Positions 1,713 to 36,620 of a stretch of DNA of 64,000 nucleotides are shown piece after piece (position 1 is the stretch's first letter; each line of letters opens with the position of its first letter). Made by a program: the position numbers and the translations under genes. This stretch comes from Sphingomonadaceae bacterium PASS1. Its GTDB lineage: Bacteria; Pseudomonadota; Alphaproteobacteria; Sphingomonadales; Sphingomonadaceae. Under the pieces are notes generated by a model. It was not told the origin of the DNA. It was given only the letters and a program-made list of their open reading frames with translations, and made no database searches. The DNA lies in assembly GCA_002255985.1 (NCBI GenBank), contig NKIR01000001.1, forward strand, positions 242,914 to 306,913, given 5' to 3'.

Positions 1713-3230
1713 ATGTCCAACCTTTACACCCTTTTGCAGACGCGCTTTCCGGAGGATGGGTCGCACGCATTCGCGACCCTCCGCGATGGAACGGTAATCA
1801 GCTATGCTGGCGTTGAAGAAGCTTCTGCGCGCTATGCGAACTTACTGGTGTTGCTGGAAGTTCAGCCCGGTGACCGGGTGGCTATCCAGGCCCCAAAGAG
1901 CATCGACATGCTGATGCTCTACCTTGGATGTTTGCGTACCGGAGCAGTTTTCTTACCCTTGAACCCGGCCTACACCGCAGGCGAGCTTGATTATTTCATG
2001 CGCGATTCCCAGCCTGCTTTATTTGTGTGCGATCCGGCGCAGGAAGAATCGATCCGCGCGCTGGCGAACGCCGCTGGTGTTGGCCGGGTTGAGACGCTGG
2101 GCGATGCGGGATCGGGAACGCTCGCGGCGCTGGCAGGGAAATGTGAAGCTGATTTTGCGACTATCAACTGCGACGACGATAATCTGGCAGCAATCCTCTA
2201 CACATCCGGCACTACTGGCCGGTCAAAGGGTGCAATGTTAAGCCACGGAAATCTCGCATCGAACGCCTTTACCCTGAGAGACTATTGGCGTTTCAACAGC
2301 GATGATACGCTGCTCCACGCACTGCCGATCTTCCACACGCACGGTCTTTTCGTGGCAACCAATGTGACGCTGGCATCTGGCGCATCGATGATCTTTCATT
2401 CCGCCTTTGATGTCGAGGATGTACTAGAGGCTTTGCCGCGCGCAACGGCGATGATGGGCGTGCCCACTTTCTATATCCGCCTTCTGAAGGAGCCCCGCTT
2501 CACAGAAGAACTTGTTGCCCATATGCGCCTGTTCATTTCGGGGTCTGCGCCGCTCTCAGCGGACATTCACCGCGCGTTTTCCGAGCGTACCGGCCACTCA
2601 ATCCTTGAACGCTATGGCATGACAGAGACAAACATGAATACGTCCAATCCCTATGATGGGGACCGTATCGCCGGAACAGTTGGCCTGCCTCTACCAGGCG
2701 TCTCAATTCGCATCGCTGACCCCGAAACAGGTGTCGTTTTACCGCAAGGGGAAATCGGCGTGATCGAAATCGCCGGGCCCAACGTCTTTCAGGGCTATTG
2801 GCAAATGCCTGAGAAGACAGCAGCAGAATTCCGGGGTGATTATTTCATTTCCGGCGACCTTGGGTTGATCGATGCCAGGGGCTACGTCTCAATCGTCGGG
2901 CGCGCCAAGGATTTGATCATTTCAGGCGGCTATAATATCTATCCGGCAGAAGTGGAAAATGCTTTGGACGAACTTAGCCAGGTTCGCGAGTCAGCAGTGA
3001 TCGGCGTTCCCCACCCTGATATGGGTGAAGGCATAATAGCGGTCGTGGTCCCGGCCGTATCAGGCTTTAGCGATGGCGCCGCATTAAAGGCTGCGCTTGC
3101 CGACAGCCTGGCCCGTTTCAAACAGCCGCGCGTGATTGCCTTTGTCGAAGAACTACCCAAGAACACGATGGGAAAAGTCCAGAAAACTGTGCTGCGTGAA
3201 GAATTTGCAACGACATTCGAACCACATTGA
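1713..3230 (+). CDS. matB: Malonyl-CoA synthetase (MatB-type acyl-CoA ligase)
   Basis: This 505-residue AMP-forming ligase activates malonate (or methylmalonate) with ATP and CoA. The P-loop YTSGTTGRSKGAM lies at residues 163-175, the substrate-pocket signature HTHGLFVATNVTL in the middle, the adenylate motif RYGMTETNMNTSNPYDG near 302, the hinge region near 395, and the C-terminal catalytic lysine in NTMGKVQK at residue 488. RYGMTETNMNTSNPYDGDR is almost unchanged in characterised MatB proteins of other alphaproteobacteria, which supports a dicarboxylate rather than fatty-acid substrate. A MatC-like transporter lies one gene downstream, reinforcing the malonate assignment. A malonyl-CoA decarboxylase is not seen in the window. 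Confidence 0.88.
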   Translation: MSNLYTLLQTRFPEDGSHAFATLRDGTVISYAGVEEASARYANLLVLLEVQPGDRVAIQAPKSIDMLMLYLGCLRTGAVFLPLNPAYTAGELDYFMRDSQPALFVCDPAQEESIRALANAAGVGRVETLGDAGSGTLAALAGKCEADFATINCDDDNLAAILYTSGTTGRSKGAMLSHGNLASNAFTLRDYWRFNSDDTLLHALPIFHTHGLFVATNVTLASGASMIFHSAFDVEDVLEALPRATAMMGVPTFYIRLLKEPRFTEELVAHMRLFISGSAPLSADIHRAFSERTGHSILERYGMTETNMNTSNPYDGDRIAGTVGLPLPGVSIRIADPETGVVLPQGEIGVIEIAGPNVFQGYWQMPEKTAAEFRGDYFISGDLGLIDARGYVSIVGRAKDLIISGGYNIYPAEVENALDELSQVRESAVIGVPHPDMGEGIIAVVVPAVSGFSDGAALKAALADSLARFKQPRVIAFVEELPKNTMGKVQKTVLREEFATTFEPH

Positions 3231-3270
3231 ATGCGCCAGAATGACAATCAAAAAAGGAACAATAACAGCT

Positions 3271-4092
3271 ATGACTGATGCATCCGCCAATGTCGCAATT
3301 GTTACTGGGGCGGCCGGTGGCATGGGCGCCGCCATCGCCAAGGCCTTTGCCGATCTAGGTCAGCCATTGATCTTGTGCGATATCCACGCTGGCCCGTTAG
3401 AGGCCATCGCCAGTGCGCTTTCAGGGCAAGTACCCGTTGCTGTGGTCACAGGCGACGTGACAGACCCAGAATACCCCACGCTGATCATCGCCGCCCTTGG
3501 TGCTCGCAAAATAGGGGCGCTGGCGCATGCTGCCGGTGTGTCTCCCGCGATGGCCGATGGCAAGCGAGTGTTTGCAATCAACTTCACAGCGACCAAAACC
3601 CTTGTCGAGGCGCTGTTGCCGCACATGGCCATCGGCGGCGCAGCGATTTTGATCTCTTCCAATTCTGGCCAGATCATTGCGCGACCCTTTTTCGACAGGG
3701 CCTTGAAAAAGGTACTTCGGGGCGACTCATCACTTTTACTCAAGTTGATGTTGCGCAATTCCCGGGCGGCGTATCCGATGTCGAAACGCGCAGTTCAACT
3801 CTATGCGCCCGCCATGTCACCAGCATTCGGCAAAATGGGCGCCAGGATCGTATCGCTTTCGCCGGGCATCATCGATACCAAGATGGGTAGGCTAGAACAG
3901 AGCGTCGGTCCGGAAATGGACAAGATGATTGCGGTGACGCCACTCGCACGGATGGGCGAGCCGCATGAAATTGCCTCGGTCGTCACCTTTCTCGCATCGT
4001 CCGCGGCCAGCTATATCACAGGCACCGATATATTGGTCGATGGCGGCACCGTTGCAGGTATCGCTGCTGTCGGAGGCGTATTGAAGCTTTGA
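3271..4092 (+). CDS. Short-chain dehydrogenase/reductase (3-alpha-HSD-like)
   Basis: This 273-residue classical SDR has the nucleotide motif TGAAGGMG at residues 12-19, an AHAAG variant of NNAG, the catalytic Ser in ILISSNSG, and Tyr/Lys in YPMSK, followed by SPGIIDT. The overall layout, with a long insert between the Ser and Tyr, resembles the 3-alpha-hydroxysteroid dehydrogenase/carbonyl reductase type. In-frame ATGs exist at 3136 (inside matB) and 3241; I chose 3271 because the Rossmann strand begins directly after it and AAAAAGGA precedes it. It sits 40 bases after matB and before matC, presumably co-transcribed. The substrate is unknown; an alcohol/ketone of the cluster compound is likely. 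Confidence 0.85.
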   Translation: MTDASANVAIVTGAAGGMGAAIAKAFADLGQPLILCDIHAGPLEAIASALSGQVPVAVVTGDVTDPEYPTLIIAALGARKIGALAHAAGVSPAMADGKRVFAINFTATKTLVEALLPHMAIGGAAILISSNSGQIIARPFFDRALKKVLRGDSSLLLKLMLRNSRAAYPMSKRAVQLYAPAMSPAFGKMGARIVSLSPGIIDTKMGRLEQSVGPEMDKMIAVTPLARMGEPHEIASVVTFLASSAASYITGTDILVDGGTVAGIAAVGGVLKL

Positions 4093-4139
4093 ATTCGTGA
4101 GACGAGGGGCAAAGCCCCCGTGGTTGGGGAGAGAGTATA

Positions 4140-5387
4140 ATGTCAATTGCTGCGATTACGTTGCTGGCCTTGCTGGCGGCCATTGTCTTGTCGATGGTAT
4201 CGCGGCTGAACATTGGGCTGCTGGCAATCGGTATGGCCTGGATCATCGGCGTCTATGCGGCAGGAGGCAAACCCGATTCCGTGATGGCAGGCTTCCCCGT
4301 TGATCTCTTCCTCACGCTATCGGGGGTCTGTTTTTTGTTTGCCATTGCGGAACTGAACGGCACCTTCCCTGTGATGGCGCAGCGGGTGATGGGCGGCACA
4401 GCGCGCAGCCGCGTGGCAATCCCGCTTAGCTTTTTTGTCAGCGCGATGATTATTTCCGCAGTGGGACCGGGAGCGATTGCAAGCACTGCGCTGATCGTTC
4501 CGATTGCCGCTGCTATTGGTAGACGGGCACATATTCCGCCGATGTTGACGGCTTTGATGGTCGCGAATGGCGCCAATGCGGGCAACCTGTCACCGATCAG
4601 CGCAGTTGGCGTTATCGCAAATTCACGGATGGCAGAGGCTGGGTTGGGCGGAAATGAGATAGCCGTGATGCTGGCTAACCTAGGCGCGCATGTTCTCGTC
4701 TCGTTGATCGCATGGATATGGTTTTTGCCCAAATTGCGCGCGGCGAATGCAGTCCCGGCAATCGAGGAAAACGGAATCGGGGCTGCCGAGTTTACACGTG
4801 CCCATATGATAACCCTTGCGGTGTTGTCGGTGTGGATTGTTGGCATCGTGCTATTCAAGGCGAACCTTGCATTTTCCGCCTTTGCCGCTGGCGTGGCGCT
4901 CATCCTTTTGCGTGCTGGCGATGAAAAGGCGGCCATCGCGCGAATGCCTTGGGGCATCCTGCTGATGGTGTGCGGCGTCGCGACACTCGTTGCATTGGTT
5001 CAGGCCAATGGGGGGACAGAGTTATTCAGTGCATTGATCGCCCGCGTGGCTGGAGCGGAATCAATTTACGGCGTTATCGCTTTCGCCACGGGACTGATTT
5101 CAACCTATAGCAGCACGTCTGGTGTGGTGCTGCCAGTGTTCCTTCCGATGGTCCCAAGCCTTGCCACCGCCACAGGAGCAACCGAACCGCTTGCCATCGC
5201 GCTGTCGATCAATGTCGGCTCGTCTTTGGTCGATGTTTCGCCGCTGTCTACACTGGGCGCTCTTTGCGTTGCAGCGCTCGGCAAGGATGAAGCCGACCCG
5301 AAGCTCTATTTCAAACTGCTGGCGTGGGGAATGGCGATGACTGTCGTCGGTGCCGCGTTATGCCAGATTGGCGCGATGTTGTTCTGA
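4140..5387 (+). CDS. matC: MatC-like dicarboxylate (malonate) carrier
   Basis: This is a 415-residue, very hydrophobic inner-membrane protein with about ten to twelve helices. The N-terminal half matches the MatC N-domain pattern (SRLNIGLLAIGMAWIIG, then a GFPVDLFLTLSGVCFLF segment). NGANAGNLSPIS and, in the C-half, INVGSSLVDVSPLSTLGAL form the paired re-entrant substrate-binding hairpins expected of ion-transporter-superfamily carriers. Behind matB it most simply imports malonate or a related short dicarboxylate for activation. GGGGAGAG about 8 bases upstream is a good ribosome-binding site. The gene ends 26 bases from the converging DUF6285-like gene. Confidence 0.82.
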   Translation: MSIAAITLLALLAAIVLSMVSRLNIGLLAIGMAWIIGVYAAGGKPDSVMAGFPVDLFLTLSGVCFLFAIAELNGTFPVMAQRVMGGTARSRVAIPLSFFVSAMIISAVGPGAIASTALIVPIAAAIGRRAHIPPMLTALMVANGANAGNLSPISAVGVIANSRMAEAGLGGNEIAVMLANLGAHVLVSLIAWIWFLPKLRAANAVPAIEENGIGAAEFTRAHMITLAVLSVWIVGIVLFKANLAFSAFAAGVALILLRAGDEKAAIARMPWGILLMVCGVATLVALVQANGGTELFSALIARVAGAESIYGVIAFATGLISTYSSTSGVVLPVFLPMVPSLATATGATEPLAIALSINVGSSLVDVSPLSTLGALCVAALGKDEADPKLYFKLLAWGMAMTVVGAALCQIGAMLF

Positions 5388-9918: not shown

Positions 9919-11166
9919 ATGGTCAAAAATACGTTACCCGCTGAAGCCATCACCGACCCGCGCACCTTCACCGATCCGGCTGCACTGCATGGCTTGCTCG
10001 CCCGTATTCGCACGACCGATCCCCTGCCCTATATTCAGGCGGAGGATTACGCGCCATTCTGGCTCGTCAGTCGGCACGCGGACATCATGGAAATAGAGCG
10101 CAACGCCGAGCAATTCATCAATGCTCCGCGCCAGGCCATATTGCCCATATCCTATGAGTTGAAGGCCCGGGCGGCGTCAGGCGGACAGGAAACCATTTCC
10201 TATATGCGCAACCTCATCATGATGGATGGCGATGAGCATAAGTCCTATCGCAACATCACCCAGACCTATTTCACACCCAAGGGGCTGGCCGGCTTGATTG
10301 GCGATATTGAAGCACTGGCCAAGGAGTTCATTGGCCGCATGGATGGAGCGGACGGTGAGATCGATTTTGCCGATGTCGCCATGGCTTTTCCGCTGCGCGT
10401 TATCATGACGATGCTGGGCGTTCCTGCCGAAGACGAGCCGCTGATGATGCGGCTGACCCAGCAAACGCTCTCCAGTCAGGACCCAGAGTTTCAAGCCGAG
10501 GGCGGCGCGCGCAAGGCGATGCTGCAGATGTATGATTATTTCAAAAAGATCATCAATGATCTGCGCGAAACGCCCAACGAAACACTCGCAAGCGTGGTTG
10601 CAAATGCCCGCATTGACGGCGAATTGCTCGCTGACCGCGATGTGTTTGGCTATTTCAACATCATTGCCACGGCTGGTCATGATACGACCAGCTATTCGCT
10701 GACCGGCGGCATGCTGGCGTTTTTGCAAAACCCCGATCAATTGGCAAAACTGCGCGCTGACCCAGCGCTTATGCCGTTGGCAGTGGAAGAAGTGCTGCGC
10801 TGGACGGCGCCGGTTAAGCATTTCTGTCGCACTGCAGTGAGGGACTGCACCGTCGCAGGCAAGCAGATCAAAGCGGGCGATTATTTGCTGCTCAGCTTTC
10901 CATCGGGTAGTTTCGACGAGAAGGTTTACGAAGACCCGTTCACCTTCCGCATCGACCGAAAGCCCAATCGCCATTTGGCTTTTGGCACTGGACCGCATGT
11001 CTGCCTCGGCCAATATCTGGCGCGGTTCGAGCTCCAATCCTTTTTTCGCGAACTGCTTGACCGGGTCGAGCATATCGAACTGGCGGGAGAACCGCGTTTT
11101 GTTGAAGGCAGCTTTGTCGGCGGCGTGAAATATCTGCCCGTCCGATACACCATGAAACAACAGTAA
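9919..11166 (+). CDS. Cytochrome P450 (class I, soluble)
   Basis: This 415-residue P450 has the I-helix oxygen motif AGHDTTS near residue 252, the K-helix ExxR in EEVLRWTAPV near 291, and the haem ligand Cys362 in FGTGPHVCLG. There is no membrane anchor, as expected for bacterial P450s fed by ferredoxin; no ferredoxin or reductase gene is present in the window. The general look (HLAFGTGPHVCLGQYLAR) fits P450s acting on steroids, terpenes or fatty-acid chains. It leads a rightward operon with an SDR, BaiE-like proteins and a KstD-like enzyme, so it probably makes the first hydroxylation. Confidence 0.92.
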   Translation: MVKNTLPAEAITDPRTFTDPAALHGLLARIRTTDPLPYIQAEDYAPFWLVSRHADIMEIERNAEQFINAPRQAILPISYELKARAASGGQETISYMRNLIMMDGDEHKSYRNITQTYFTPKGLAGLIGDIEALAKEFIGRMDGADGEIDFADVAMAFPLRVIMTMLGVPAEDEPLMMRLTQQTLSSQDPEFQAEGGARKAMLQMYDYFKKIINDLRETPNETLASVVANARIDGELLADRDVFGYFNIIATAGHDTTSYSLTGGMLAFLQNPDQLAKLRADPALMPLAVEEVLRWTAPVKHFCRTAVRDCTVAGKQIKAGDYLLLSFPSGSFDEKVYEDPFTFRIDRKPNRHLAFGTGPHVCLGQYLARFELQSFFRELLDRVEHIELAGEPRFVEGSFVGGVKYLPVRYTMKQQ

Positions 11167-11176
11167 AGGAGCTTGA

Positions 11177-11974
11177 TTGACTATGCGCACGAACTCGGGC
11201 CGGTTGGCCGGCAAAGTCGCAATCATCACCGGGGCCAGCAAAGGCACCGGAGTCGTCATGGGCAAGCAGTTCGCCGACGCAGGTGCCAAGGTGTTGATGG
11301 TCGCTCGCAATGAAGACGCGGTGAAAGAAGCGGCAGTTGCTGCGGGCAATGGTGCGATCGGGATGCGCGCCGATGTGACCAACGAAGCCGATGTCGCGGC
11401 GATGGTGGACCGCGCGCTCGCCGAATGGGGTCAGGTCGATATTTTGCTCAACAACGCGGTCATTCCGGGCAAGGATTTGCACGTCTGGGAACAGACGCTG
11501 GAAAACTGGAACGAGGTGTTCGCCATCTGCATCACCGCGCCGATGATCGCTTCGCGCGAAGTGCTCAAACGTTCGATGCTGGAGCGCAAAACCGGCTCGA
11601 TTATCAACTTCTCGTCCACCGCAGGCTGGACTGGGATGCCGCGCAAGTCGCATTATGTCTCGTCCAAGGCCGGATTGCGCGCGCTGACCAAGGTGATCGC
11701 CACCGAAGCTGGGCCTTATGGTGTGCGCTGCAACTGCCTCGTCCCCGGCGGGATTGAGACCGATTTGTGGACCAACTGGGGCAAACGAATGTCGGCTGAG
11801 CAGGGCATCACTTTTGAAGAGTGGAAGGTGAAAGCACTGAGCGACGTTCCGTTGCGCACGATTTCACAGCCCGAAGATATTGGAAATCTCGCCTTGTTTC
11901 TTGCCAGTGATGAAAGCCGCACCATCACCGGTCAGTCGATCAATTGCGACGCCGGCAGCATCATGATCGGTTAA
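11177..11974 (+). CDS. Short-chain dehydrogenase/reductase
   Basis: This is a 265-residue classical SDR: TGASKGTG near residue 20, LLNNAVIP as the NNAG equivalent, Ser in IINFSSTAGW, and YVSSK as the Tyr/Lys motif, then LVPGGIETD. It probably oxidises the alcohol produced by the upstream P450. The TTG at 11177 is five bases from AAAGGAG and best spaced; an ATG two codons later at 11183 is the alternative. It is 10 bases behind the P450 and 12 before the first SnoaL-fold gene, so all are one transcription unit. Confidence 0.87.
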   Translation: MTMRTNSGRLAGKVAIITGASKGTGVVMGKQFADAGAKVLMVARNEDAVKEAAVAAGNGAIGMRADVTNEADVAAMVDRALAEWGQVDILLNNAVIPGKDLHVWEQTLENWNEVFAICITAPMIASREVLKRSMLERKTGSIINFSSTAGWTGMPRKSHYVSSKAGLRALTKVIATEAGPYGVRCNCLVPGGIETDLWTNWGKRMSAEQGITFEEWKVKALSDVPLRTISQPEDIGNLALFLASDESRTITGQSINCDAGSIMIG

Positions 11975-11986
11975 GGGAGAACCCGT

Positions 11987-12469
11987 GTGTCAAAAACTAT
12001 CGAACAGCGCTTATTGGAACTCGAAGATCGCGAAGCCATTCGCCAAGTCGTATCCGGCTATGGCTATGCGGTAGACGGGCTGAATGCCGAAGCCGTCGGC
12101 TCCTGCTATGTCGATGCCGGCGTCTATGCCGTTGGCGACATTGGGAAAATGGAAGGCCGCGAAACTATCGAGGCGATCACCCGCGACCCTGGCCATCTTG
12201 CTTATGTCGGCGCAGGATGCGCGCATATTGCAACCTCGCCGTATATCATTCTCGACGGTGACTACGCAGTCGCCACCTGCCACACTATGGTCAACATGCA
12301 CGGCGAGAACGGCTTTTTCATTGGCCGTTTGAGCGCATCGCGCATTGATCTGGCGCGGCAAGACGATGGCAGCTGGAAAATCACCTATCGGCAGAATTAC
12401 ATGCTGAACGGCGATCCTGCGGGCTCGAAACTGCTTGGGCGGCTGAACGAAGGGCCGGCAGCAGCCTGA
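11987..12469 (+). CDS. SnoaL/NTF2-fold protein, candidate dehydratase or isomerase (copy 1)
   Basis: This 160-residue protein opens with a helix (TIEQRLLELEDREAIRQVVSGYGYAVDGLN) typical of SnoaL_4-type NTF2 folds. It keeps a Tyr five residues before Asp (YGYAVD) and a His in AHIATSPYI. These are the places of the Tyr/Asp/His set reported for the bile-acid 7-alpha-dehydratase BaiE (Tyr30, Asp35, His83; recalled, not looked up). The start codon is GTG, behind AAGGGAGA. It is the first of three such genes in a row and more distant from the other two. The likely role is water elimination or double-bond shift on a cyclic intermediate. Confidence 0.75.
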   Translation: MSKTIEQRLLELEDREAIRQVVSGYGYAVDGLNAEAVGSCYVDAGVYAVGDIGKMEGRETIEAITRDPGHLAYVGAGCAHIATSPYIILDGDYAVATCHTMVNMHGENGFFIGRLSASRIDLARQDDGSWKITYRQNYMLNGDPAGSKLLGRLNEGPAAA

Positions 12470-12472
12470 CCG

Positions 12473-12931
12473 ATGAGCGCGCTTTCCGGTATCGCAAAGC
12501 TAATGGCAATCGACGCCATTTGCTTGCTTAAGGCAAGACGGGACCGGGCGTGCGATACCAAGGACTGGGACCTTTATGCATCGCTGCACGCGCCCGACCA
12601 TGTATCAGAAAACGGCGACTATGGCCGCTGGACCAGCACCGCCGAAATGATGCTCTATGTGCCCAAAAGCATGAGAAATCTGACAACATTGCACCAGTCG
12701 CACACACCCGACATCACCTTTGAGACCGCCACCACAGCACGCGGCATCTGGGCGATGGAGGGTATGTCGTTCTGGCAGCAGGACAGTGAAGACCATTGGT
12801 TTCAGGCCTTTGGCCATTATTTCGAAAGCTATGAAGTGCGCGGCGGCAGATGGCTATTCACCAGCCGCAAGCTCACTTATTATCATACAAGAAAATCCGA
12901 AGGCGCGATCTTTCCGCCTAAGATCGACTAA
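12473..12931 (+). CDS. SnoaL/NTF2-fold protein, BaiE-like (copy 2)
   Basis: This 152-residue protein is clearly paralogous to the next one: both share LLKxRRDRAxDTKDWxLYxSLHA and SHTPDITF. The HTPDIT element and a YEVRGGRWLFTSR end match the pattern of BaiE (HTPEIT, YEKIDGQWY). The Asp of DTK and the His of SHTP are present, but the position of the BaiE Tyr is Arg (RRDRACD). It begins three bases after the stop of copy 1. Dehydratase activity is inferred from fold and context, and the lost Tyr makes the chemistry uncertain. Confidence 0.75.
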   Translation: MSALSGIAKLMAIDAICLLKARRDRACDTKDWDLYASLHAPDHVSENGDYGRWTSTAEMMLYVPKSMRNLTTLHQSHTPDITFETATTARGIWAMEGMSFWQQDSEDHWFQAFGHYFESYEVRGGRWLFTSRKLTYYHTRKSEGAIFPPKID

Positions 12932-12955
12932 AACCCAATTTTAGGAGAATTCAAC

Positions 12956-13396
12956 ATGATAGGCATGACCGACATCGAATATCTAATGGCTGTGAACGAA
13001 ATACAGCTGTTGAAATCGCGCCGCGACCGCGCGGTAGATACCAAGGACTGGGCACTTTACCGTTCGCTACACGCCGATCATCATGTGTCGCATAATGACG
13101 GCTATGAACGGTGGGAATCGGCTGACGTGATGATTGCAAATGTCAAAGATCTGCTCAACGAAACCAAAACATCGGTGCATCATTCGCACACACCTGACAT
13201 CACCTTTCAATCAGCAACAACCGCCAAAAGCATTTGGGGTATGGAGGATTTGATCTTTGATACTGCAAGCGGTGAATTGCTCATCCACGGCTTTGGTTTC
13301 TATCATGAGACATATGAAAAAATCGACGGTAAGTGGCTGTTCAATAGCCGCCAGCTAAAGCGCACATTGGTGCGTGAAAAGCCCGAAAGCAAATAG
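12956..13396 (+). CDS. SnoaL/NTF2-fold protein, BaiE-like (copy 3)
   Basis: This 146-residue protein is the tandem duplicate of copy 2. Its HHSHTPDITF and the closing YEKIDGKWLFNSRQLKR segment are strikingly close to BaiE (GHTPEIT; YEKIDGQWY). Asp and His of the presumed catalytic set are present, while the Tyr position is Arg, as in copy 2. TTAGGAG lies just before the ATG. The two copies may form a heteromer or act on different epimers; both are inferences. It is followed by the KstD-like gene after 32 bases. Confidence 0.77.
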   Translation: MIGMTDIEYLMAVNEIQLLKSRRDRAVDTKDWALYRSLHADHHVSHNDGYERWESADVMIANVKDLLNETKTSVHHSHTPDITFQSATTAKSIWGMEDLIFDTASGELLIHGFGFYHETYEKIDGKWLFNSRQLKRTLVREKPESK

Positions 13397-13428: not shown

Positions 13429-15099
13429 ATGAGCACATATGACGAAACATTCGACTTTGTCGTCGTCGGCAGCGGCGGAGGATCGATGTGTGCCGCGCTT
13501 GTGCTGCGACAGGCTGGCAAGTCTGTGCTGATCCTCGAAAAAACCGACCTGATCGGCGGCACAACAGCGCGCTCGGGTGGCGTCATGTGGATACCCAACA
13601 ACCGCTTCATGAAGCGCGACGGGGTCGAGGACAGCCGGGAAAAGTCGATAGCCTATATGGACTCGGTGGTTGGCGATCATAATGACACACCGGGTGCCAC
13701 GAAAGCGCGACGAGATGCCTATGTTGATAACAGCACAGAGATGGTCGATTTCCTCGTTGATCAGGGAATTAAGCTCAACCGCGTCTCTTATTGGCCGGAT
13801 TATTATGACAACCAGCCAGGTGGTTCGGAAGAAGGCCGCACGGTTGTCGCCGAACTGTTCAATGTGAATGAGCTTGGCGAATGGAAATCCAAGCTGCGTC
13901 CCAATTTCATTCCGATGATGGGAACGCTGGACGAGTTCCTCAAGCTCAGGTTCATCAAAAAGAGCTGGGAGGCCAAGAAGATTGCGGTGCGACTTGGGCT
14001 GCGGACAATTGGCGCGAAGCTGACAGGTAAGCACTACGTCACTGCAGGTGCCGCGCTTCAGGGGCGAATGTTTCAGGCGGCGTTGAAAGCCCGTGTCGAA
14101 TTTCGTATCAATTCCGCAGTCCAAGAGCTGGTTGTCGAAGACGGCAGGGTCAAAGGCGTTGTCGCAATGATAAACAGCAAGCCATATCGGGTAGCGGCGA
14201 AATTGGGCGTCCTGGTGAACGCCGGCGGTTTTGCGCACAATCAGGAAATGCGCGACAAATATATTCCGGGAACGAGCGTCAAATGGACCAATGTGACCGA
14301 AGGCGATACCGGCGAGATGATCCTGGAGATGATGCGCCACGGCGCCGCCATCGCGCAAATGGAGGAAATGGTCGGCAACCAGATGTCGATCCCGCCGGGC
14401 ATGGAAAATGATGCGGTAAAACCCGTTGTGCAAGGCGTCACTGCCGCGCCACATGCTATACTCGTGGACCAAACCGGCGTACGCTACATGAACGAAAGCG
14501 GATCTTACATGACCTATTGTCAGGGCATGCTTGAGCGCAACAAGACGGTTCCTGCCGTACCGAGCTGGGCAATCATGGATAGCCAATACATCAAGAACTA
14601 CGGTCTGATAACGCCATTTCCAAGCACAAAAAAGCCGCAAGCCTGGTATGATTCAGGTTATCTTAAAAAGGCCGATACGATTGAAGAGCTGGCAGGCATG
14701 CTAAACATTGGTCCCTCAGCGCTCCGTGCAACGGTCGATCGCTTCAACGGCTTTGTAGAAAACAACAAGGATGAGGATTTCAACCGGGGGGAGCGGGCCT
14801 ATGATCGCTGGCTGGGCGATCCCTACCACCCGAACAACGCCTCACTTGGAAGCATCAGCAAAGGCCCCTTTTATGCGGTCGAGGTCGTTCCCGGCGACGT
14901 TGGCACTTATGGCGGCGTGGTGACCGACGACAATGCCCGCGTGTTGCGCGAGGATGGAACTGCAATTGAAGGCCTCTACGCCACAGGCATTTCCACTGCA
15001 TCGGTCATGGGCCGCGCGTATGCTGGAGCCGGAGCCAGCGTCGGCCCGTCATTCGTGTGGGGCTATGTCACCGCCAAACATGTTTTGGCTTCTGCATAG
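13429..15099 (+). CDS. FAD-dependent 3-ketosteroid-delta1-dehydrogenase-like oxidoreductase
   Basis: This 556-residue flavoprotein of the fumarate-reductase/KstD superfamily has a dinucleotide motif GSGGGS at residues 14-19, the FAD-binding EKTDLIGGTTARSGGVMW segment near 40, and the C-terminal GLYATGISTASVMGRAYAGAGAS signature near 520. That signature is nearly that of 3-ketosteroid delta1-dehydrogenases. It should introduce a double bond next to a ring ketone. The neighbours (P450, SDR, BaiE-like dehydratases) make ring desaturation of a steroid or terpenoid-like substrate plausible. There is no signal peptide, so it is cytoplasmic. The electron acceptor is unknown. Confidence 0.85.
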   Translation: MSTYDETFDFVVVGSGGGSMCAALVLRQAGKSVLILEKTDLIGGTTARSGGVMWIPNNRFMKRDGVEDSREKSIAYMDSVVGDHNDTPGATKARRDAYVDNSTEMVDFLVDQGIKLNRVSYWPDYYDNQPGGSEEGRTVVAELFNVNELGEWKSKLRPNFIPMMGTLDEFLKLRFIKKSWEAKKIAVRLGLRTIGAKLTGKHYVTAGAALQGRMFQAALKARVEFRINSAVQELVVEDGRVKGVVAMINSKPYRVAAKLGVLVNAGGFAHNQEMRDKYIPGTSVKWTNVTEGDTGEMILEMMRHGAAIAQMEEMVGNQMSIPPGMENDAVKPVVQGVTAAPHAILVDQTGVRYMNESGSYMTYCQGMLERNKTVPAVPSWAIMDSQYIKNYGLITPFPSTKKPQAWYDSGYLKKADTIEELAGMLNIGPSALRATVDRFNGFVENNKDEDFNRGERAYDRWLGDPYHPNNASLGSISKGPFYAVEVVPGDVGTYGGVVTDDNARVLREDGTAIEGLYATGISTASVMGRAYAGAGASVGPSFVWGYVTAKHVLASA

Positions 15100-15109
15100 G
15101 GTGCACATC

Positions 15110-15838
15110 ATGGCACTCAACGACCGCGACCTGCGCATATCGCTATCCGATGCTCGAACGATAGATGCTACAACCAGTTACGCACGTAGCGGCATTTTGC
15201 GGATTGGCGATCTTTTTTCTGAAGCTGTAGCAGACGCGCTGCATCATCACCTTGATCGAGAAGTGGAGTGGGGACGGGTAGTCAGCCAAGGGGATAAGGC
15301 ATGGGATTTGACACCTCAAGCCATTGCCCTGCTGCAAGGCGAAAATGAAAAAGCATTTCTCTCCAAAATCCATGAATCAGCGCGCGATGGGTTCCAATTC
15401 TTGTTTGATTCGCTCATCGTATCTGACAACGCAGACGAACGCCGGGCTCGAGGGTTGCTGGTCGATAGGGTAATTGAAGCCCTTAACCATCCCGCTTCAC
15501 TTGACCTATTCCGCACGATCACAGGAGAGCCCGCAGTTCGTGTCGTCAATGGGCAGGCTACACGCTATCTGCCTGGCCATTTTCTCACCAGCCACGATGA
15601 TGACATCGCCGGCGAGGACCGCGTCGCTGCCTATGTTATCAATCTGACAAGGGGCTGGCGATCTGATTGGGGCGGAATGCTGCAATTCCACAACGCAGGC
15701 GGCGACATACCTCTTGCGCTCAAGCCCGGATTCAATACCATCCATTTGTTCCGCGTTCCGCAAACACACAGTGTGTCTTATGTCGCTCCCTTTGCTACCG
15801 TACCTCGGTATGCAATTACCGGATGGCTGCAGCGGTGA
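15110..15838 (+). CDS. 2-oxoglutarate/Fe(II) oxygenase, prolyl-4-hydroxylase-like fold
   Basis: This 242-residue protein has the iron triad HxD at His162-Asp164 (TSHDDD), the distal His220 in QTHSVSYV, and the 2-oxoglutarate-binding Arg near 232 in PRYAITGWL. Its core (YVINLTRGWRSDWGGMLQF) is typical of 2OG-Fe(II) oxygenases of the P4H-like type. It starts 10 bases after the KstD-like gene; the ATG at 15110 has AGGG upstream, and the longer frame back to 14933 lies inside the KstD gene. It may hydroxylate a small cluster metabolite or a protein. It is last in the rightward operon, facing the lipoyl gene. Confidence 0.82.
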   Translation: MALNDRDLRISLSDARTIDATTSYARSGILRIGDLFSEAVADALHHHLDREVEWGRVVSQGDKAWDLTPQAIALLQGENEKAFLSKIHESARDGFQFLFDSLIVSDNADERRARGLLVDRVIEALNHPASLDLFRTITGEPAVRVVNGQATRYLPGHFLTSHDDDIAGEDRVAAYVINLTRGWRSDWGGMLQFHNAGGDIPLALKPGFNTIHLFRVPQTHSVSYVAPFATVPRYAITGWLQR

Positions 15839-18311: not shown

Positions 18312-19535
18312 ATGTCATATATGGAACTGTTCAAGGTCCCTGAACCAACGCCCGAATTGAGCCGCAAATCGTCCATAGTCGGCGTCGGCGAAAGCGACTT
18401 TCATGCCGACTATCAGGCAGCGCGTGCCAATACGCCGGGATATGAGGGGCATACGTCGGAAAGTCTGGCGGTTATCGCCTTTGAACGCGCGCTTGCCGAT
18501 TCCGGATTGAAGCGCGAAGACATTGACGGGCTGGGCGTCAATTATCTCTATGGCGGGCCGAGCGCTGAAGAAACCGCCGCGATGCTGGGGCTGAAGCCGA
18601 AGCATATCATGGGCCAAAGCGGCGGCATTTGTGCCGGGCCGATTCCTTTTGCCTGTAACGAAATCGCGCAGGGCAAAGCCGACACCGTCGTCCTTATCTT
18701 CTCTGCTGCAACGCGTTCGATCGGGCGCTCATTTGGCGGGCAGGGCGTTACAACCGGCGGGCCGAGTTCCTATTATTACCACCACCCATGGGGTTGGAGT
18801 TCACAGGCTGCGCATTGGGCGCTGATCTGGCAGCATTATATGGCGACCTATAATGCGACCGAGGCCGATCTCGCCTCTGTTGCGATCCAGATGCGGACCA
18901 ACGCAATGCGCAACCCCAATGCGATCATGCAAGCGCCGCTGACGGTCGAGAAATATCTGGGTTCGCGTTATGTGGTAAAGCCGCTGCATTTGTTCGACCT
19001 GTGTCTGGTCAATGATGGTGCGGTCTGCCTGATCATCCGCAAGGCCGATATGGCGCGCGACTTGCCGCATGTACCGGTCGACATCGGCGGCTGGGGCCAT
19101 GCAGCGGTCAAATCAGGCAAGCTGCACACGCTGGTTCGCGAACGGCTCCGCCCGCAGTTTCAGGAATCGGGGCGGCAGGCACTGGCAATGGCGGGAATTC
19201 CGCTGTCAGAAGTGCACCATTTCGAAGGCTATGACGCCTCGACCATCCACCTGATCAACCATATCGAGGGGCATGGTTTTGTCGAACCCGGCGCTGGCCT
19301 TGAGTTTTGCAAAAGCGGTGAGATGGATGTGAATGGATCGCTGCCAGTCAATATGGCGGGCGGCATTCTCTCGGGATCGTATATGCACGGCTGGAACCAT
19401 GTCGCCGAAATCGTCCGCCAATTGCGCCACGAAGCCGGGCCGCGTCAGGTTAAGGATGTGCACACTTCCATGTTCTCGCTGGCGCAAACCGATCAGGTCC
19501 ATCCGGTCATATTCATGCGGAGGGAAACATCATGA
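18312..19535 (+). CDS. Thiolase-like acyltransferase / lipid-transfer (SCP-x type) protein
   Basis: This 407-residue protein has the thiolase fold. The segment SGGICAGPIPFACNEIAQGKAD aligns with the active-site loop of thiolases, with Cys107 at the nucleophile position. Later HFEGYDASTIHLINH replaces the usual HDCF region, and MAGGILSGSYMHGWNH replaces GHPxGATG. Because that second catalytic motif is altered, it may be a retro-aldolase such as the Ltp2 type rather than a true thiolase. The next gene is the OB-fold partner those aldolases need (overlap of four bases). AAGGGACG precedes the ATG. Confidence 0.82.
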   Translation: MSYMELFKVPEPTPELSRKSSIVGVGESDFHADYQAARANTPGYEGHTSESLAVIAFERALADSGLKREDIDGLGVNYLYGGPSAEETAAMLGLKPKHIMGQSGGICAGPIPFACNEIAQGKADTVVLIFSAATRSIGRSFGGQGVTTGGPSSYYYHHPWGWSSQAAHWALIWQHYMATYNATEADLASVAIQMRTNAMRNPNAIMQAPLTVEKYLGSRYVVKPLHLFDLCLVNDGAVCLIIRKADMARDLPHVPVDIGGWGHAAVKSGKLHTLVRERLRPQFQESGRQALAMAGIPLSEVHHFEGYDASTIHLINHIEGHGFVEPGAGLEFCKSGEMDVNGSLPVNMAGGILSGSYMHGWNHVAEIVRQLRHEAGPRQVKDVHTSMFSLAQTDQVHPVIFMRRETS

Positions 19536-19942
19536 CGCAAACCCGACCCAACCGCACGCTTGGTCCCGGCCATGATGATTTCTGGGCAGGTTGCGCCGCA
19601 GGCGAGCTACGCATCCAGCATTGCAACGCGTGTGATAAACATAGCTGGCCAGTAGTTGGCGATTGCGAACATTGCGGCAGCACGGACCTCCGCTGGCAGG
19701 TGATGTCGGGCAAAGGCAAAGTCGTTAGCTGGTGCTGCTTTGTGCAGGATTATTATCGCGGGGTAATGTCTGTTCCATATGACACGATCATGGTCGAACT
19801 TGCCGAAGGGCCGATCTTCATTAGCAATCCGGCTGATTTCGCTTATGATGACATCACCTTTGAAATGCCCGTCGAAGTAACCTTCATAGACGCAGAGGAT
19901 GCTGCGGGCGCGTTCAAACTGCCCGTGTTTCGCAAGGCATGA
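19532..19942 (+). CDS. Zn-ribbon OB-fold protein (DUF35 type), partner of the thiolase-like enzyme
   Basis: This 136-residue protein has an N-terminal rubredoxin-like zinc ribbon, HCNACDKHSWP and CEHCGS around residues 28-50, followed by an OB-fold (GKVVSWCCFVQDYY). Proteins of this type bind acyl-CoA and form obligate complexes with thiolase-like aldolases or MaoC hydratases, as in cholesterol side-chain cleavage. Its start overlaps the thiolase stop by ATGA, and its stop overlaps the crotonase start, so the three are made together. Confidence 0.87.
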   Translation: MTQTRPNRTLGPGHDDFWAGCAAGELRIQHCNACDKHSWPVVGDCEHCGSTDLRWQVMSGKGKVVSWCCFVQDYYRGVMSVPYDTIMVELAEGPIFISNPADFAYDDITFEMPVEVTFIDAEDAAGAFKLPVFRKA

Positions 19943-25228: not shown

Positions 25229-26200
25229 TTACCCCTCAAACTCATAAAACTTCTGATACTGCCGCCGGTACGCCAAAATCGGCCCGTCGCCTTTCACCAG
25301 CAGTGGTTCTGTCTGAAAAATTTTAGCATTCCAGATCGGAATATCCTGATTGACCTGCTTCACCAGATCGCGGATGCGGGCGTCGGTCACACGAATGCGG
25401 CCTTCGCTTAGGCCCGGCGCATGATACATTTGCCAGCGCAGATGTGTGTGCTCAGCGTCAATCGGCGTCTGCTGCTGGTTATGGACGACATGCGTTACGT
25501 CCTTGAACTCGGTAATCGACTGGCCGGGGCCGGTCGCAGTAACGTCGATAATCCCGGTCATCGGCCCGCGCGGCGTGACCATTTCGGCGACGACTTTGTT
25601 CGACCGCACCCAACCGTCGATCTTGAAATCGCCCTCTGCCGGGCCAGTAACGCCGTGGACCGCGTTGAAATGGGCATGATCCTGACCGTTTTCGGTAATT
25701 TCCTGAACATGTATATTGATGATCCATTCATAGGTCGAATGCAGCACCCATTCACCATCTTCGGGGCAGGTCGGCATCGCCGCTACGTCCCATTTAGGCT
25801 CTGCTTTGTTCGGATGATACCAGACAAAGGCCACGCCATCCTGTTCTTTTACCGGCCATGTGGGCAGGCATTGTCGTTTCAGCCGGGGGGCTATCGTGTC
25901 AGTATAGGGAATGTTGGTCACGGCACCTTGGCCGCTGAAACTCCAATGATGGAAGGCACAGCGCAGATCATTGCCATTGACGGTACTTTCGACACCCAGA
26001 TGCGCGCCCAGATGCGGGCAGAACGGATCGACGGCGTTCAGCACGCCATCTTCGCCGCGCCACATGACGAATTCGGTGCCGAAGTAATTCATCGTCCTGA
26101 TCGCGCCAGCTGCAATCTCGTCCGACATGGCAACGCCGAACCAACCAAAGGGTATGGGAAGGCTATTATAGCCACGTTCGCGTGTGTGATTGATGTTCAT
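25229..26200 (-). CDS. Rieske non-haem iron oxygenase, KshA-like terminal component
   Basis: This 323-residue protein has the Rieske ligands CPHLGAH and CAFHHW near residues 60-83, and the mononuclear iron motif ENGQDHAHFNAVHGV near 174 (Asp and two His). Size and arrangement fit the 3-ketosteroid-9-alpha-hydroxylase (KshA) group rather than ring-hydroxylating dioxygenases. The ATG at 26200 has GGAG seven bases upstream and is preferred to the starts at 26212/26215 overlapping the neighbour's stop. No reductase partner is seen in the window. Next to paired acyl-CoA dehydrogenases, it probably hydroxylates a ring of the cluster compound. Confidence 0.88.
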   Translation of the reverse strand: MNINHTRERGYNSLPIPFGWFGVAMSDEIAAGAIRTMNYFGTEFVMWRGEDGVLNAVDPFCPHLGAHLGVESTVNGNDLRCAFHHWSFSGQGAVTNIPYTDTIAPRLKRQCLPTWPVKEQDGVAFVWYHPNKAEPKWDVAAMPTCPEDGEWVLHSTYEWIINIHVQEITENGQDHAHFNAVHGVTGPAEGDFKIDGWVRSNKVVAEMVTPRGPMTGIIDVTATGPGQSITEFKDVTHVVHNQQQTPIDAEHTHLRWQMYHAPGLSEGRIRVTDARIRDLVKQVNQDIPIWNAKIFQTEPLLVKGDGPILAYRRQYQKFYEFEG

Positions 26201-26211
26201 AATCGTCTCCA

Positions 26212-27438
26212 TCAACGTCCAGTTGGAATTTCGCGGAACGGTACAGCCTTGTCCACACGCACGTCGCCGGGCAGGCCGAGGACGCGTTCCGCAATAATAT
26301 TCTTCATAATCTCATCAGTGCCGCCGCCCAACCTCAGCGCGGGCGCCCATAGAAAACGGTGCTGGAAACCGCCGTTGAGCATCGCAATCTCGGGATCATC
26401 AATCAGGCCGAAATGATCCTGAATATCCATCGCCTGATTGGTCAATTCCTGCGTTTGCGTCGCCCAGAGCAGCTTGCCCGCCGATCCCTCTGGCCCCGGT
26501 GCTTTACCGTGCGACAAGGCAGTCAGCGTGCGGAAGCTCAAAAGCCGGATCGCTTCGGAGCCAACATAATAGTCCGCCAGCCATTCGCGGAAGGCGGGGT
26601 CTTCGAGCGTGGTGCCATCAAAGGCCGGGCTATTACGCGCCACCTCCATAATGTCGCGCCAGGTCAACCCCGTGCCCGACCCCAAGGCCGCACGTTCGTT
26701 CATCAGCGTGGAGATGACCACTTTCCAGCCATCGCCGGGATTGCCAATCATCTGGTTGGCGGGGATGCGAACATCTTCAAGGAAAACCTCATTCAGCTCG
26801 CTATCGCCCGACATCATCTTGATCGGGCGAACTTCAAGACCCGGGGTCTTCATATCCAGCCAGAATGCCGATAGCCCCTTATGCTTTGGCACATCCGCAT
26901 CGGTGCGAGCGATGACCATGCCATAATCAGATGCCTGTGCGCCGCTGTTCCAAACCTTTTGGCCGTTGAGCACCCAATGGTCACCATCGCGCACCGCCAT
27001 TGTGCGGGTGGCGGCTGAGTCGGAGCCGCTCGACGGTTCCGAAAAGAGCTGGCACCAGATTTCATCACCGCGCACGGCGGGCGCGACGCGGGCGAGCGAG
27101 GCTTCGTCGCTGCTATGCTCCATCAGCGCGGGCAGCAGCATGTGCTGCCCGGTCATGAAATACGTAAACTGCACCCCGGCGCGCGCTTCTTCTTGATTGA
27201 AGATCGCTTCCTGGATGGCCGTGCCGCCTGCCCCGCCGCGTTCTTTGGGCCAGGAGATACAGGCGTAACCCGCATCGGCTTTGGTCGCCTGCCAGACGGT
27301 GGCGATGGCCTTGTGCTTATCCTGCCAAGGGCGGCGTTCTTCGGGGGCGAGTACCGACATATCGGGCGCGTTTGCCTCGATCCACGCACGCACGGTGGCT
27401 CGATAGGCGGCTTCCTGCGGGTTATCGTCGAAATTCAT
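26212..27438 (-). CDS. Acyl-CoA dehydrogenase, subunit of a probable heteromeric pair (A)
   Basis: This 408-residue flavoprotein has FAD/substrate-binding segments GAGGTAIQEAIFNQEE, CQLFSEPSSGSD (typical CxxFSEPxxGSD), NGQKVWNSGAQ and GGGTDEIMKNIIAERVLGLP. It overlaps the second dehydrogenase gene by ATGA. Such side-by-side, dissimilar pairs form alpha2beta2 acyl-CoA dehydrogenases that act on steroid-CoA side chains, with one FAD site shared between subunits. The start at 27438 has GGAGAAA before it; an upstream start at 27495 lies inside the neighbour. Confidence 0.9.
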   Translation of the reverse strand: MNFDDNPQEAAYRATVRAWIEANAPDMSVLAPEERRPWQDKHKAIATVWQATKADAGYACISWPKERGGAGGTAIQEAIFNQEEARAGVQFTYFMTGQHMLLPALMEHSSDEASLARVAPAVRGDEIWCQLFSEPSSGSDSAATRTMAVRDGDHWVLNGQKVWNSGAQASDYGMVIARTDADVPKHKGLSAFWLDMKTPGLEVRPIKMMSGDSELNEVFLEDVRIPANQMIGNPGDGWKVVISTLMNERAALGSGTGLTWRDIMEVARNSPAFDGTTLEDPAFREWLADYYVGSEAIRLLSFRTLTALSHGKAPGPEGSAGKLLWATQTQELTNQAMDIQDHFGLIDDPEIAMLNGGFQHRFLWAPALRLGGGTDEIMKNIIAERVLGLPGDVRVDKAVPFREIPTGR

Positions 27439-28574
27439 GGCTGTTTCTCCGCATTGACGCGTGCTTCCAAACTGTCGGCAAGTCTGCGTTTCCAATCACG
27501 CGGGGCACCGATGACAAGGCCCAGATGCCGTGCGCGGCGATAAAAGAAATGGCAATCCGCCTCCCATGTCACGCCGATGCCACCATAAGTCTGGATCATT
27601 TCTTTGGCCGCCATCCAATAGGCCGCTGAGCCAGCGACGCGCGCTGCCGCTGCCGCAACCGGCAATTCAGGCGCATCGGTCGAAAGCGCCCAAGCGCCAT
27701 AATAGGCATTGGCGCGCGCGACTTCATTCTTCACGAATACATCCGCCAGCTTATGCTTGATCGCCTGATAGCTACCAATCGGGCGGCCAAAGGCATAGCG
27801 TTCCAGCGCATAATCGCGCGCCATTTCGAGGCATCGGTCCGCGCCGCCCAATTGTTCAAATGCCAGCAAGATCGCGCCGCGTTCTTGGATGCGGTGAAGT
27901 GTTTCCAGCCCCTTGCTTGCTTCGCCGAGCAGTTCGGCGGGGGCACCGTCAAAGCTGATCCGTGCGGCTCCGCGTGTGGGATCTATATTGGAGACCGCTT
28001 CGCGAGACACGCCTTCGCCAATCAGATCGACGAGATAGAGCCCAAGCCCCGTGTCTCCCCCATCGTCACCTTGCGCCAAGACAACCGCACGCCCCGCCGC
28101 CATGCCGTCCGCTACCGGTAGCTTGGTGCCAAAAACTCTCCCGCCGGAAACTTTTGCCGATATTCGCGCTTCAGTAAGCACACCTGCACCTTCGGCTACT
28201 GCCAGCGTGCCGATCAGTTCGCCGCTTGCAACCAAGGGCAGCAATTCTGATTTCTGTTGCTCGCTGCCCACCAGCATCAGCGCCTCGGCAAAGAAATAAA
28301 TGCTCGAAGCGAATGGCACGGGTGCGACCGCACGGCCTAATTCTTCTGCCAGCGCGCACAATTCGACATAGCCAAGCCCCAGCCCGCCATAAGATTCGGG
28401 GATGGTCGCTCCGCACCAGCCTTGCTCGACAATGCGGCCCCACAATGCCGTGTCATAACCATCGCCCGGATTTTCCAGCACCGCACGCGCCACCGTCAAC
28501 GGCGAAGCAGCGGTCAAAAACCGCCGCGCTTCTTCTTTCAGCGCCTTTTGGTCGTCGGTATAATCAAAATTCAC
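27435..28574 (-). CDS. Acyl-CoA dehydrogenase, subunit of a probable heteromeric pair (B)
   Basis: This 379-residue protein is shorter and more divergent than its partner: the opening FDYTDDQKALKEEARRFL is typical, the middle domain is weakly conserved (TEARISAKVSGG), and the C-domain has QTYGGIGVTWEADCHFFYRRAR. The last motif is typical of the subunit that completes the catalytic site in two-gene dehydrogenases. It is translationally coupled to subunit A and lies nine bases behind the nitronate-monooxygenase-like gene. Confidence 0.9.
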   Translation of the reverse strand: MNFDYTDDQKALKEEARRFLTAASPLTVARAVLENPGDGYDTALWGRIVEQGWCGATIPESYGGLGLGYVELCALAEELGRAVAPVPFASSIYFFAEALMLVGSEQQKSELLPLVASGELIGTLAVAEGAGVLTEARISAKVSGGRVFGTKLPVADGMAAGRAVVLAQGDDGGDTGLGLYLVDLIGEGVSREAVSNIDPTRGAARISFDGAPAELLGEASKGLETLHRIQERGAILLAFEQLGGADRCLEMARDYALERYAFGRPIGSYQAIKHKLADVFVKNEVARANAYYGAWALSTDAPELPVAAAAARVAGSAAYWMAAKEMIQTYGGIGVTWEADCHFFYRRARHLGLVIGAPRDWKRRLADSLEARVNAEKQP

Positions 28575-35477: not shown

Positions 35478-36620
35478 TCAAGCCTTTTCAAAAATATGGA
35501 CGCCCGCCGCCGAGCCCGTGCCAAAGCCAAGAACATGGGTCATGCCGATTTTCGCGCCATCCACCTGCCGCGCGCCTGCTTCACCGCGCAATTGGTCGAT
35601 AATCTCGACCATATTGGCAACGCCGGTTGCGCCAATCGGATGTCCCTTGGATAACAGCCCGCCCGACACATTGACTGGGATACGACCACCTAGAGCCGTC
35701 GCCCCCGAATCGATAAACGCCCCGCCTTCACCATCGGCGCACAGGCCAAGATTTTCGTAATGCAGGATTTCCGCAACCGCGAAGCAATCATGCAGTTCGA
35801 CCAGATCCATATCCTCCGGCCCCATCCCCGCCATTTCATACGCCTGCGCCACGGCAAGCCGCGTCACCGAATTGGGATCGAGCATATCAGGATTGCGCGG
35901 CTCGAACGGGTCAGAGGCCAGCGCTGATCCGAGCAATCGGACCGCACGGCTCAACCCAAGCTCGCGCGCCTTCTTTTCTGAAACCAGTATGAGCGCGGCA
36001 GCACCATCGACATTGGCCGAACACATCAGCTTAGTCAGCGGATAGGCTATCATTTCACTCGCTAGCACTTCTTCCAGCGGGGTTTCTTTGCGGTAAGCCG
36101 CTTTAGGGTTCATCGTGGCGTGATGGTGGTTCTTTACTGCTACTTGCGCGAATTGCTCAATCGTCGTGCCATAGGCATTGGCATGCACCATCCCCGCTTC
36201 TGCAAAGAGCGCAGGCATCGAGACTGAGCCGAACAGCCCTTCGGGCGGCGGGCCATCAACGGGAGAACCCGCAAGCATTCCGCGCGGGTTCTTTTCCGCG
36301 CCGACTGCCAGCACTACATCATAAAGCCCGCTTTTGATTGCAACAAACGCCTCGCGCACCGCCGTCGCGCCAGAGGCACAGGCGTTTGAAACATTGATAA
36401 CAGGCACACCGGTCTGGCCGATCTGTTGGAGCATCTTTTGCCCCAGCATGGATGCCGCATTGAAGGTGGACGAGGCATAAACTACGCCAACATCCTTGAT
36501 CGACAGCCCGCAATCATCCAGCGCCATCAACGTCGCGTCGGCGGCGAGCTGGAAATAAGTGCGATCAGGATAGCGGCCAAAGGGGATCATTCCCGCACCA
36601 ACGATATACGCATCGCTCAT
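35478..36620 (-). CDS. Thiolase (SCP-x/FadA5-like acetyl-CoA acetyltransferase)
   Basis: This 380-residue thiolase has all catalytic parts: the nucleophile Cys81 in NVSNACASGAT, LHDCFAVAEI with the second-site His, and SKGHPIGATGVAN near residue 335. It should cleave 3-ketoacyl-CoA side chains with CoA. In contrast to the protein at 18312, the motifs are canonical. Its start overlaps the stop of the OB-fold gene by four bases, so the two are made as partners. Confidence 0.89.
   Translation of the reverse strand: MSDAYIVGAGMIPFGRYPDRTYFQLAADATLMALDDCGLSIKDVGVVYASSTFNAASMLGQKMLQQIGQTGVPVINVSNACASGATAVREAFVAIKSGLYDVVLAVGAEKNPRGMLAGSPVDGPPPEGLFGSVSMPALFAEAGMVHANAYGTTIEQFAQVAVKNHHHATMNPKAAYRKETPLEEVLASEMIAYPLTKLMCSANVDGAAALILVSEKKARELGLSRAVRLLGSALASDPFEPRNPDMLDPNSVTRLAVAQAYEMAGMGPEDMDLVELHDCFAVAEILHYENLGLCADGEGGAFIDSGATALGGRIPVNVSGGLLSKGHPIGATGVANMVEIIDQLRGEAGARQVDGAKIGMTHVLGFGTGSAAGVHIFEKA

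Follow-up and report, generated by a model that had tools for sequence, protein, structure and literature searches.

Two neighbouring genes of Sphingomonadaceae bacterium PASS1 encode relatives of BaiE, the Clostridium 7alpha-dehydratase, in which Arg stands where BaiE has Tyr30, raising the question of what this branch catalyses and whether its two members act together. The rate-limiting step in making secondary bile acids is carried out by BaiE-type enzymes, and related proteins occur in bacteria that degrade steroids aerobically. A naturally occurring Tyr-to-Arg branch, accompanied by a conserved paralogue minus two more active-site residues, offers a ready experiment on the residues that elimination needs, and the pair points to an uncharacterised ring-compound pathway in alphaproteobacteria. 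Our analysis of the surrounding 64,000 nucleotides (the window, in whose coordinates all positions are given) and of related genomes suggests that the Arg-type pair is a new branch of the BaiE family.

Three SnoaL_4 genes and their nearest relatives

As the preliminary description had it, three SnoaL-fold genes follow one another on one strand, and all match Pfam SnoaL_4:

11987-12469, + strand: copy 1 (S1), SnoaL_4; GTG start, 160 aa (Pfam SnoaL_4 E 5.2e-21)
12473-12931, + strand: copy 2 (S2), BaiE-related SnoaL_4; 152 aa (Pfam SnoaL_4 E 5.7e-17)
12956-13396, + strand: copy 3 (S3), BaiE-related SnoaL_4; 146 aa (Pfam SnoaL_4 E 1.3e-18)

BaiE is the top phmmer match in the PDB for both copy 3 (E 2.6e-13) and copy 2 (E 4.6e-10). 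Both motifs that had linked them to BaiE can be read in the sequences, HTPDIT in the two copies and YEKIDGKW in copy 3 alone, and the phmmer E-values place the resemblance beyond chance. For copy 1 the best PDB match is 2rfr (E 6.2e-21), and BaiE is absent from its 10 PDB matches (E up to 10). The label of a BaiE-like triplet thus stands for copies 2 and 3 and falls for copy 1, and the set consists of one SnoaL gene of another branch and a BaiE-like pair. The Tyr/Asp/His arrangement ascribed to copy 1 is real, with Tyr25, Asp30 and the His of 'AH' kept in 9/9 rows, including one that is almost the same sequence as the window. Closest kinship with limonene-epoxide hydrolases or polyketide cyclases, which had been raised as a possibility, does not apply to copies 2 and 3, for which BaiE is nearest in the PDB.

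The structure model of copy 3 (pLDDT 95.8, pTM 0.88) leads to the same relatives. BaiE fills Foldseek ranks 1-4 (E 5.2e-13 to 1.9e-12, TMq 0.82-0.85), followed by the hexachlorocyclohexane dehydrochlorinase LinA at ranks 5-8 and a putative scytalone dehydratase at rank 9, and a profile search returns BaiE at E 2.6e-34. Identity to BaiE over the aligned segment is 36% for copy 3 and 29% for copy 2; Foldseek gives 26-28% for copy 3. The likeness to LinA extends to the fold, the Asp-His base pair and a basic residue at the Arg23 place, and the HMMER profile alignment sets Arg23 in the column of LinA-type1 Lys20, Asp28 on LinA Asp25 and His75 on LinA His73. In LinA, His73 is described as taking the proton and Asp25 as pairing with His73, with Lys20 among the substrate contacts (PMC3507683, PMC6929183), and LinA-type2 is reported as still active with Gln20 (PMC3507683). 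LinA differs in its reaction, the elimination of HCl from a chlorinated ring, and its identity to copy 3 is 19-20%.

Dehydratases of this fold are already on record in aerobic proteobacteria. Hsh2 of Sphingobium sp. Chol11 is described as an NTF2-like 7alpha-hydroxysteroid dehydratase and BaiE homologue, and so resembles the pair in fold, homology and aerobic sphingomonad origin (PMC12175502). In Caenibius tardaugens three genes carry a 7alpha-dehydratase annotation (PMC12882949), and SteC of Comamonas testosteroni TA441 is presented as a SnoaL/NTF2 dehydratase that acts on a ring hydroxyl of a steroid, BaiE-like according to its authors (PMC13101464). A SnoaL-fold dehydratase in an aerobic proteobacterium is therefore not new, and the novelty first claimed for one in an aerobic alphaproteobacterium lapses, both through Hsh2 (PMC12175502) and through the BaiE matches in 37/298 genomes of the family. 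Hsh2 and SteC were compared by description: SteC differs in its target, the hydroxyl at C12 in a fragment of the steroid (PMC13101464), and the family's aligned Tyr-type BaiE-like proteins fall outside the Arg clade. Our search of the open PMC library found no Arg-type BaiE and no paired SnoaL dehydratase.

Residues, clades and distribution of the Arg type

BaiE numbering here is the position in the aligned BaiE segment plus 12. In BaiE, Tyr30 is a member of the catalytic triad, Asp35 and His83 have catalytic roles, and Asp106 and Arg146 are important residues. Both copies share with BaiE (PDB 4l8p, 4l8o, 4leh, 4n3v) Asp35, His83, the HTPxIT strand and the YEKIDGKW-type strand, and both depart from it in having Arg for Tyr30 and Asp for Phe31. 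Copy 3, which also has the BaiE fold, carries R23 at Tyr30 and keeps Asp35 (D28), His83 (H75), Asp106 (D98) and Arg146 (R136). Copy 2 likewise carries R23 and keeps Asp35 (D28) and His83 (H74), and has Gly for Asp106 (G97) and Tyr for Arg146 (Y136), a double loss absent from the preliminary description. The statement there that both copies keep Asp and His is accurate for Asp35 and His83 and inaccurate for the second conserved Asp, which is Gly in copy 2. The Arg reported at the Tyr place is genuine, standing in the BaiE Tyr30 column of an ungapped block. An alignment slip is ruled out by that block and by Arg in 38/38 rows.

We counted residues over 76 aligned rows, comprising 13 copy-2 rows (12 distinct, one species occurring twice), 25 copy-3-type rows, 34 Tyr-type rows, three of BaiE and the locus L048. 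L004, near-identical to the window, and the spurious L075_847_1341 were left out before tree and counts. The short matches L027-L040 lie outside residue scoring (the visible piece has Tyr in L028 and L029), the N-terminal part of L024 is missing, and copy 2 of L020, overlooked in gene calling, is in the counts and outside the tree.

Every one of the 38 Arg-clade rows, among them the two copies of the window, has Arg at BaiE Tyr30 followed by Asp at Phe31; His83 is kept in 38/38 and Asp35 in 37/38, the exception being Asn in one copy-2 row (L008). The copy-2 rows are uniform (13 each) for Arg30, Asp31, His83, Gly106, His125 and Tyr146, with Asp35 in 12, and the copy-3-type rows for Arg30, Asp31, Asp35, His83, Asp106, Phe125 and Arg146 (25/25 each). 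Among Tyr-type rows, Asp106 is found in 34/34 and Arg146 in 33/34. The divergence of copies 2 and 3 from one another, as originally suggested, is thus visible in copy-specific residues (Gly106/Tyr146 against Asp106/Arg146) and in separate clades: a 75-row tree supports a copy-2 clade of 12 rows at 99/99, a copy-3-type clade of 25 rows at 96/87 and their union at 100/97, with weaker deeper forks and several long branches flagged. The simplest reading of these patterns would be that Tyr changed to Arg once, that the gene was later duplicated, and that copy 2 lost Asp106 and Arg146 after that. L048 (genome G012) is sister to the Arg clade (99/95) and has Arg30 with Val31 (RRVR), Asp106 and Arg146 kept, making it a possible intermediate toward that clade; a copy-1-like gene (36%) adjoins it on the opposite strand.

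Copy 2 is under purifying selection. Its pN/pS is 0.24-0.29 in 5/5 comparisons, against 0.12-0.22 for copy 3; pN/pS is the only measure used, dS having been saturated or undefined in several comparisons. A decaying pseudogene is ruled out by these values and by an open frame in 10 loci.

A search of genome contigs returned 37 loci, the nearest 19 of which (L004-L022) are all Arg. Copy 2 is present in 10 of these 19 stretches, directly beside copy 3 in nine and 2.4 kb away in one (L021). In the family sample of 298 genomes, the 37 with a BaiE match at E<=1e-12 include four of Arg type, the source genome among them, and the 11 matching at E<=1e-20 divide into four Arg-Asp, one Arg-Val (G012, L048) and six Tyr. 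Both copies occur in each of the four Arg-Asp genomes; in one genome, G171, they are 6 kb apart. Among 14 genomes behind copy-3 loci, eight have the Gly106 type together with copy 3, and copy 2 was not found in the other six (G303, G304, G305, G306, G307 and G311). The six are two isolates (Acidocella aquatica and Herbiconiux ginsengi) and four possibly incomplete MAGs. In G303, G305, G306 and G311 the best match was examined and has Asp106, with two further, weaker G303 matches (50% and 47%) having their residues outside the comparison; G304 and G307 are represented by the match list only, with identities up to 46%. These six genomes speak against a strict dependence of copy 3 on copy 2. Copy 2 in turn was found only alongside a copy-3 type (4/4 Arg-type genomes of the family sample, 8/8 copy-3-chosen genomes), evidence that is weak because the eight were selected for having copy 3, so that a lone copy 2 could be missed. 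G156 and G309 are apparently one genome, with identical copy 2 and the same contig number, so the 18 Arg-type genome entries stand for 17 genomes, and those with copy 2 number 12 entries but 11 genomes.

Other arrangements occur among the relatives. L013, L014, L015 and L018, titled Novosphingobium or Sphingomonadaceae MAGs, have two tandem copy-3-type genes, both with Asp106, near a relA/spoT gene (by Pfam for L013, the same cluster in the others), a pairing unlike that of the window. L009 lies on a contig filed as actinobacterial, yet it shares 71-91% identity with the window in the P450, SDR and SnoaL genes; the label is probably a binning error.

Gene neighbourhood and steroid-pathway markers

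The pair and copy 1 sit between oxidative genes:

9919..11166, + strand: cytochrome P450; best PDB match P450terp (1cpt), E 1.3e-97
11183..11974, + strand: SDR oxidoreductase; adjoins copy 1 in 9/9 sets (window plus eight loci) with copy 1 called
13429..15099, + strand: KstD-like FAD dehydrogenase; conserved at the positions of KstD1 Tyr119, Tyr318, Tyr487 and Gly491
25229..26212, - strand: KshA-like Rieske oxygenase, 10 kb downstream; PF19298 (KshA_C) match inside, ~91-92 bits; best PDB match 4qdf KshA, E 3.1e-29
26212-27438 and 27435-28574: two acyl-CoA dehydrogenase genes, next to the KshA-like gene

P450terp is of CYP108 type, and the four KstD1 residues are catalytic positions. The KstD-like protein scores 654 bits against an NCBIfam cut-off of 789. 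Both flanks first described, P450/SDR upstream and a KstD-like dehydrogenase downstream, are therefore in place. The ring-modifying setting read from them has recurring neighbours in part of the relatives and does not extend to all loci. Copy 1 is found in 7/10 both-copy loci (L004, L005, L006, L009, L010, L011, L019), beside its SDR, and in 4/10 (L005, L006, L008, L021) the gene right after copy 3 is KstD-like; conservation of the cassette is thus partial. L005 belongs to an isolate, Sphingomonas psychrolutea. No KstD-like gene was found in the stretches of L009, L010, L011, L019 and L020, and L004 ends at copy 3; a short KstD-like piece (56%) lies near the pair in L093, from the L010 genome. 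L006 has a P450 orthologue (78%) within the stretch, and in L009 one (80%) sits immediately upstream of the SDR. Some relatives carry additional genes between copies 1 and 2, namely a luciferase-like oxidoreductase (L005, L006, L009, L011) and a 188-aa protein matching neither Pfam nor NCBIfam (L006, L009, L010, L011).

The window holds several further genes. A 2OG-Fe(II) oxygenase (14933-15838, +) comes straight after the KstD-like gene, its ORF overlapping the latter and its true start unsure. Two thiolase-like genes have small neighbours (18312-19942, +; 35478-37045, -); the neighbour of the former is a ChsH2-like zinc-ribbon/OB protein, and that of the latter may be another. A 673-aa OYE-type flavoenzyme (32672-34693, -) has BaiCD as its best NCBIfam match (272 bits against a cut-off of 825), and at 1713-5387 (+) a malonyl-CoA synthase above its cut-off, with a MatC-type carrier one gene beyond it, forms a malonate set near the cassette.

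Two markers of the 9,10-seco route give different results here: the KstD type is present with its catalytic residues kept, and no match to the extradiol dioxygenase HsaC/TesB appears at E<=1e-5 in the source genome (completeness 95.9%). Across the 18 Arg-type entries, HsaC is strong in five (E<=1e-40), weak in two and without a match at 1e-10 in 11; among the 12 with copy 2 (11 genomes) it is strong in two, G302 and G308. All eight comparison genomes with close BaiE relatives, hand-picked rather than drawn at random from the 37 BaiE-matching family genomes, have HsaC at E below 1e-75. The contrast is only relative, since none of the genomes exceeds the cut-off for HsaC, some of the carriers are MAGs and the comparison genomes were hand-picked. 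KshA_C is above its cut-off in the source genome and in 12 of the 18 entries, though it scores 92 bits in the former and 197 in G306; these matches favour chemistry of a steroid-like kind, and the KshA-like gene possibly belongs to the same pathway as the KstD-like gene. With HsaC missing here and strong in only five of the 18 entries, a classical steroid substrate is unlikely.

Proposed function and competing readings

The BaiE and LinA fold ranks, together with the alignment of Arg23, Asp28 and His75 on Lys20, Asp25 and His73 of LinA, lead us to interpret copy 3 as an eliminase or isomerase that relies on an Asp-His pair and has Arg in the role of Tyr. We favour, with moderate confidence, the view that the two copies are an Arg-type branch of the BaiE/Hsh2 SnoaL-fold hydro-lyases, copy 3 acting in this way and copy 2 being a diverged paralogue, within a cassette for an alicyclic ketone. 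What the analysis shows is homology, residue patterns, clades, partial gene order, co-occurrence and purifying selection; the reaction catalysed, the part played by Arg23, the class of substrate and any joint action of the copies are inferred.

Judged by its residues, copy 3 would most likely be an elimination or double-bond-shifting enzyme. By analogy with BaiE Asp35-His83 and LinA Asp25-His73, its Asp28-His75 pair would be the general base, and Arg23, aligned with BaiE Tyr30 and LinA-type1 Lys20, could polarise a carbonyl or enolate or hold the leaving group; Arg23, Asp28 and His75 are predicted from the alignment to share one cavity. Since LinA-type2 is active with Gln20, the Arg23/Tyr30 position may not be catalytic, and dehydration itself may not survive in the Arg type because the lost Tyr30 is a BaiE triad member. 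Copy 2, with its Asp-His pair kept and Asp106 and Arg146 lost, would most likely be a diverged accessory paralogue serving alongside copy 3, and the six of 14 copy-3 genomes in which it was not found mean that joint action is not needed everywhere. Sub-functionalisation of the two copies fits the data; loss of catalysis in copy 2 fits them too. The whole cassette of P450, SDR, copy 1, copies 2 and 3 and KstD-like dehydrogenase would serve catabolism of an alicyclic ketone, probably terpenoid rather than a classical steroid.

Copies 2 and 3 could instead be two separate homo-oligomeric enzymes, each with its own chemistry and catalysing successive steps (for example dehydration, then hydration or isomerisation) rather than being partners. 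The purifying selection on copy 2, its own fixed Gly106, His125 and Tyr146 in 13/13 rows and the distances between the copies in G171 and L021 make this a tentative possibility, countered by their immediate adjacency in the other nine of ten both-copy loci and, weakly given how the genomes were chosen, by the constant company of a copy-3 type. Quite unlikely, in our judgement, is that the Arg-type proteins perform some other SnoaL-fold chemistry, such as carbon-carbon lysis of the LdpA type, epoxide opening or binding only. NaLdpA and SpLdpA do appear at copy-3 Foldseek ranks 35 and 47, and loss of Tyr30 with gain of Asp31 throughout the clade is a large active-site change; however, the nearest structures are four of BaiE, then LinA and the putative scytalone dehydratase, all named as eliminases, and Asp35 and His83 are retained almost without exception.

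We consider it very improbable that the pair simply serve bile-salt degradation as steroid 7alpha-dehydratases of the usual Hsh2 type. They belong to the same superfamily, Hsh2 is described from the same bacterial family (PMC12175502), and the KstD-like and KshA-like genes of the window, with the KshA_C matches in most Arg-type entries, agree with such a role. Yet Tyr30 is replaced, the family's Tyr-type proteins found with the BaiE query fall elsewhere in the tree (its deep forks being weak), and the HsaC match is lacking here and strong in a minority of Arg-type entries, as against all of the hand-picked genomes with BaiE relatives.

A more elaborate form of partnership is a hetero-oligomer of copies 2 and 3, in which the degenerate BaiE paralogue would complete or gate the Arg-type site, giving a SnoaL hydro-lyase that is split and sub-functionalised and whose substrate is an isoprenoid ring other than a steroid; we rate this as unlikely. 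Modelled as one chain, the two copies give pLDDT 83.4 and pTM 0.67 from a shallow alignment of 10 rows, two of them spanning the copy-3 half, a result that does not distinguish heteromer from homomer. With Arg30 and Tyr146, copy 2 has swapped the Tyr and Arg that BaiE carries at these two positions of the active site.
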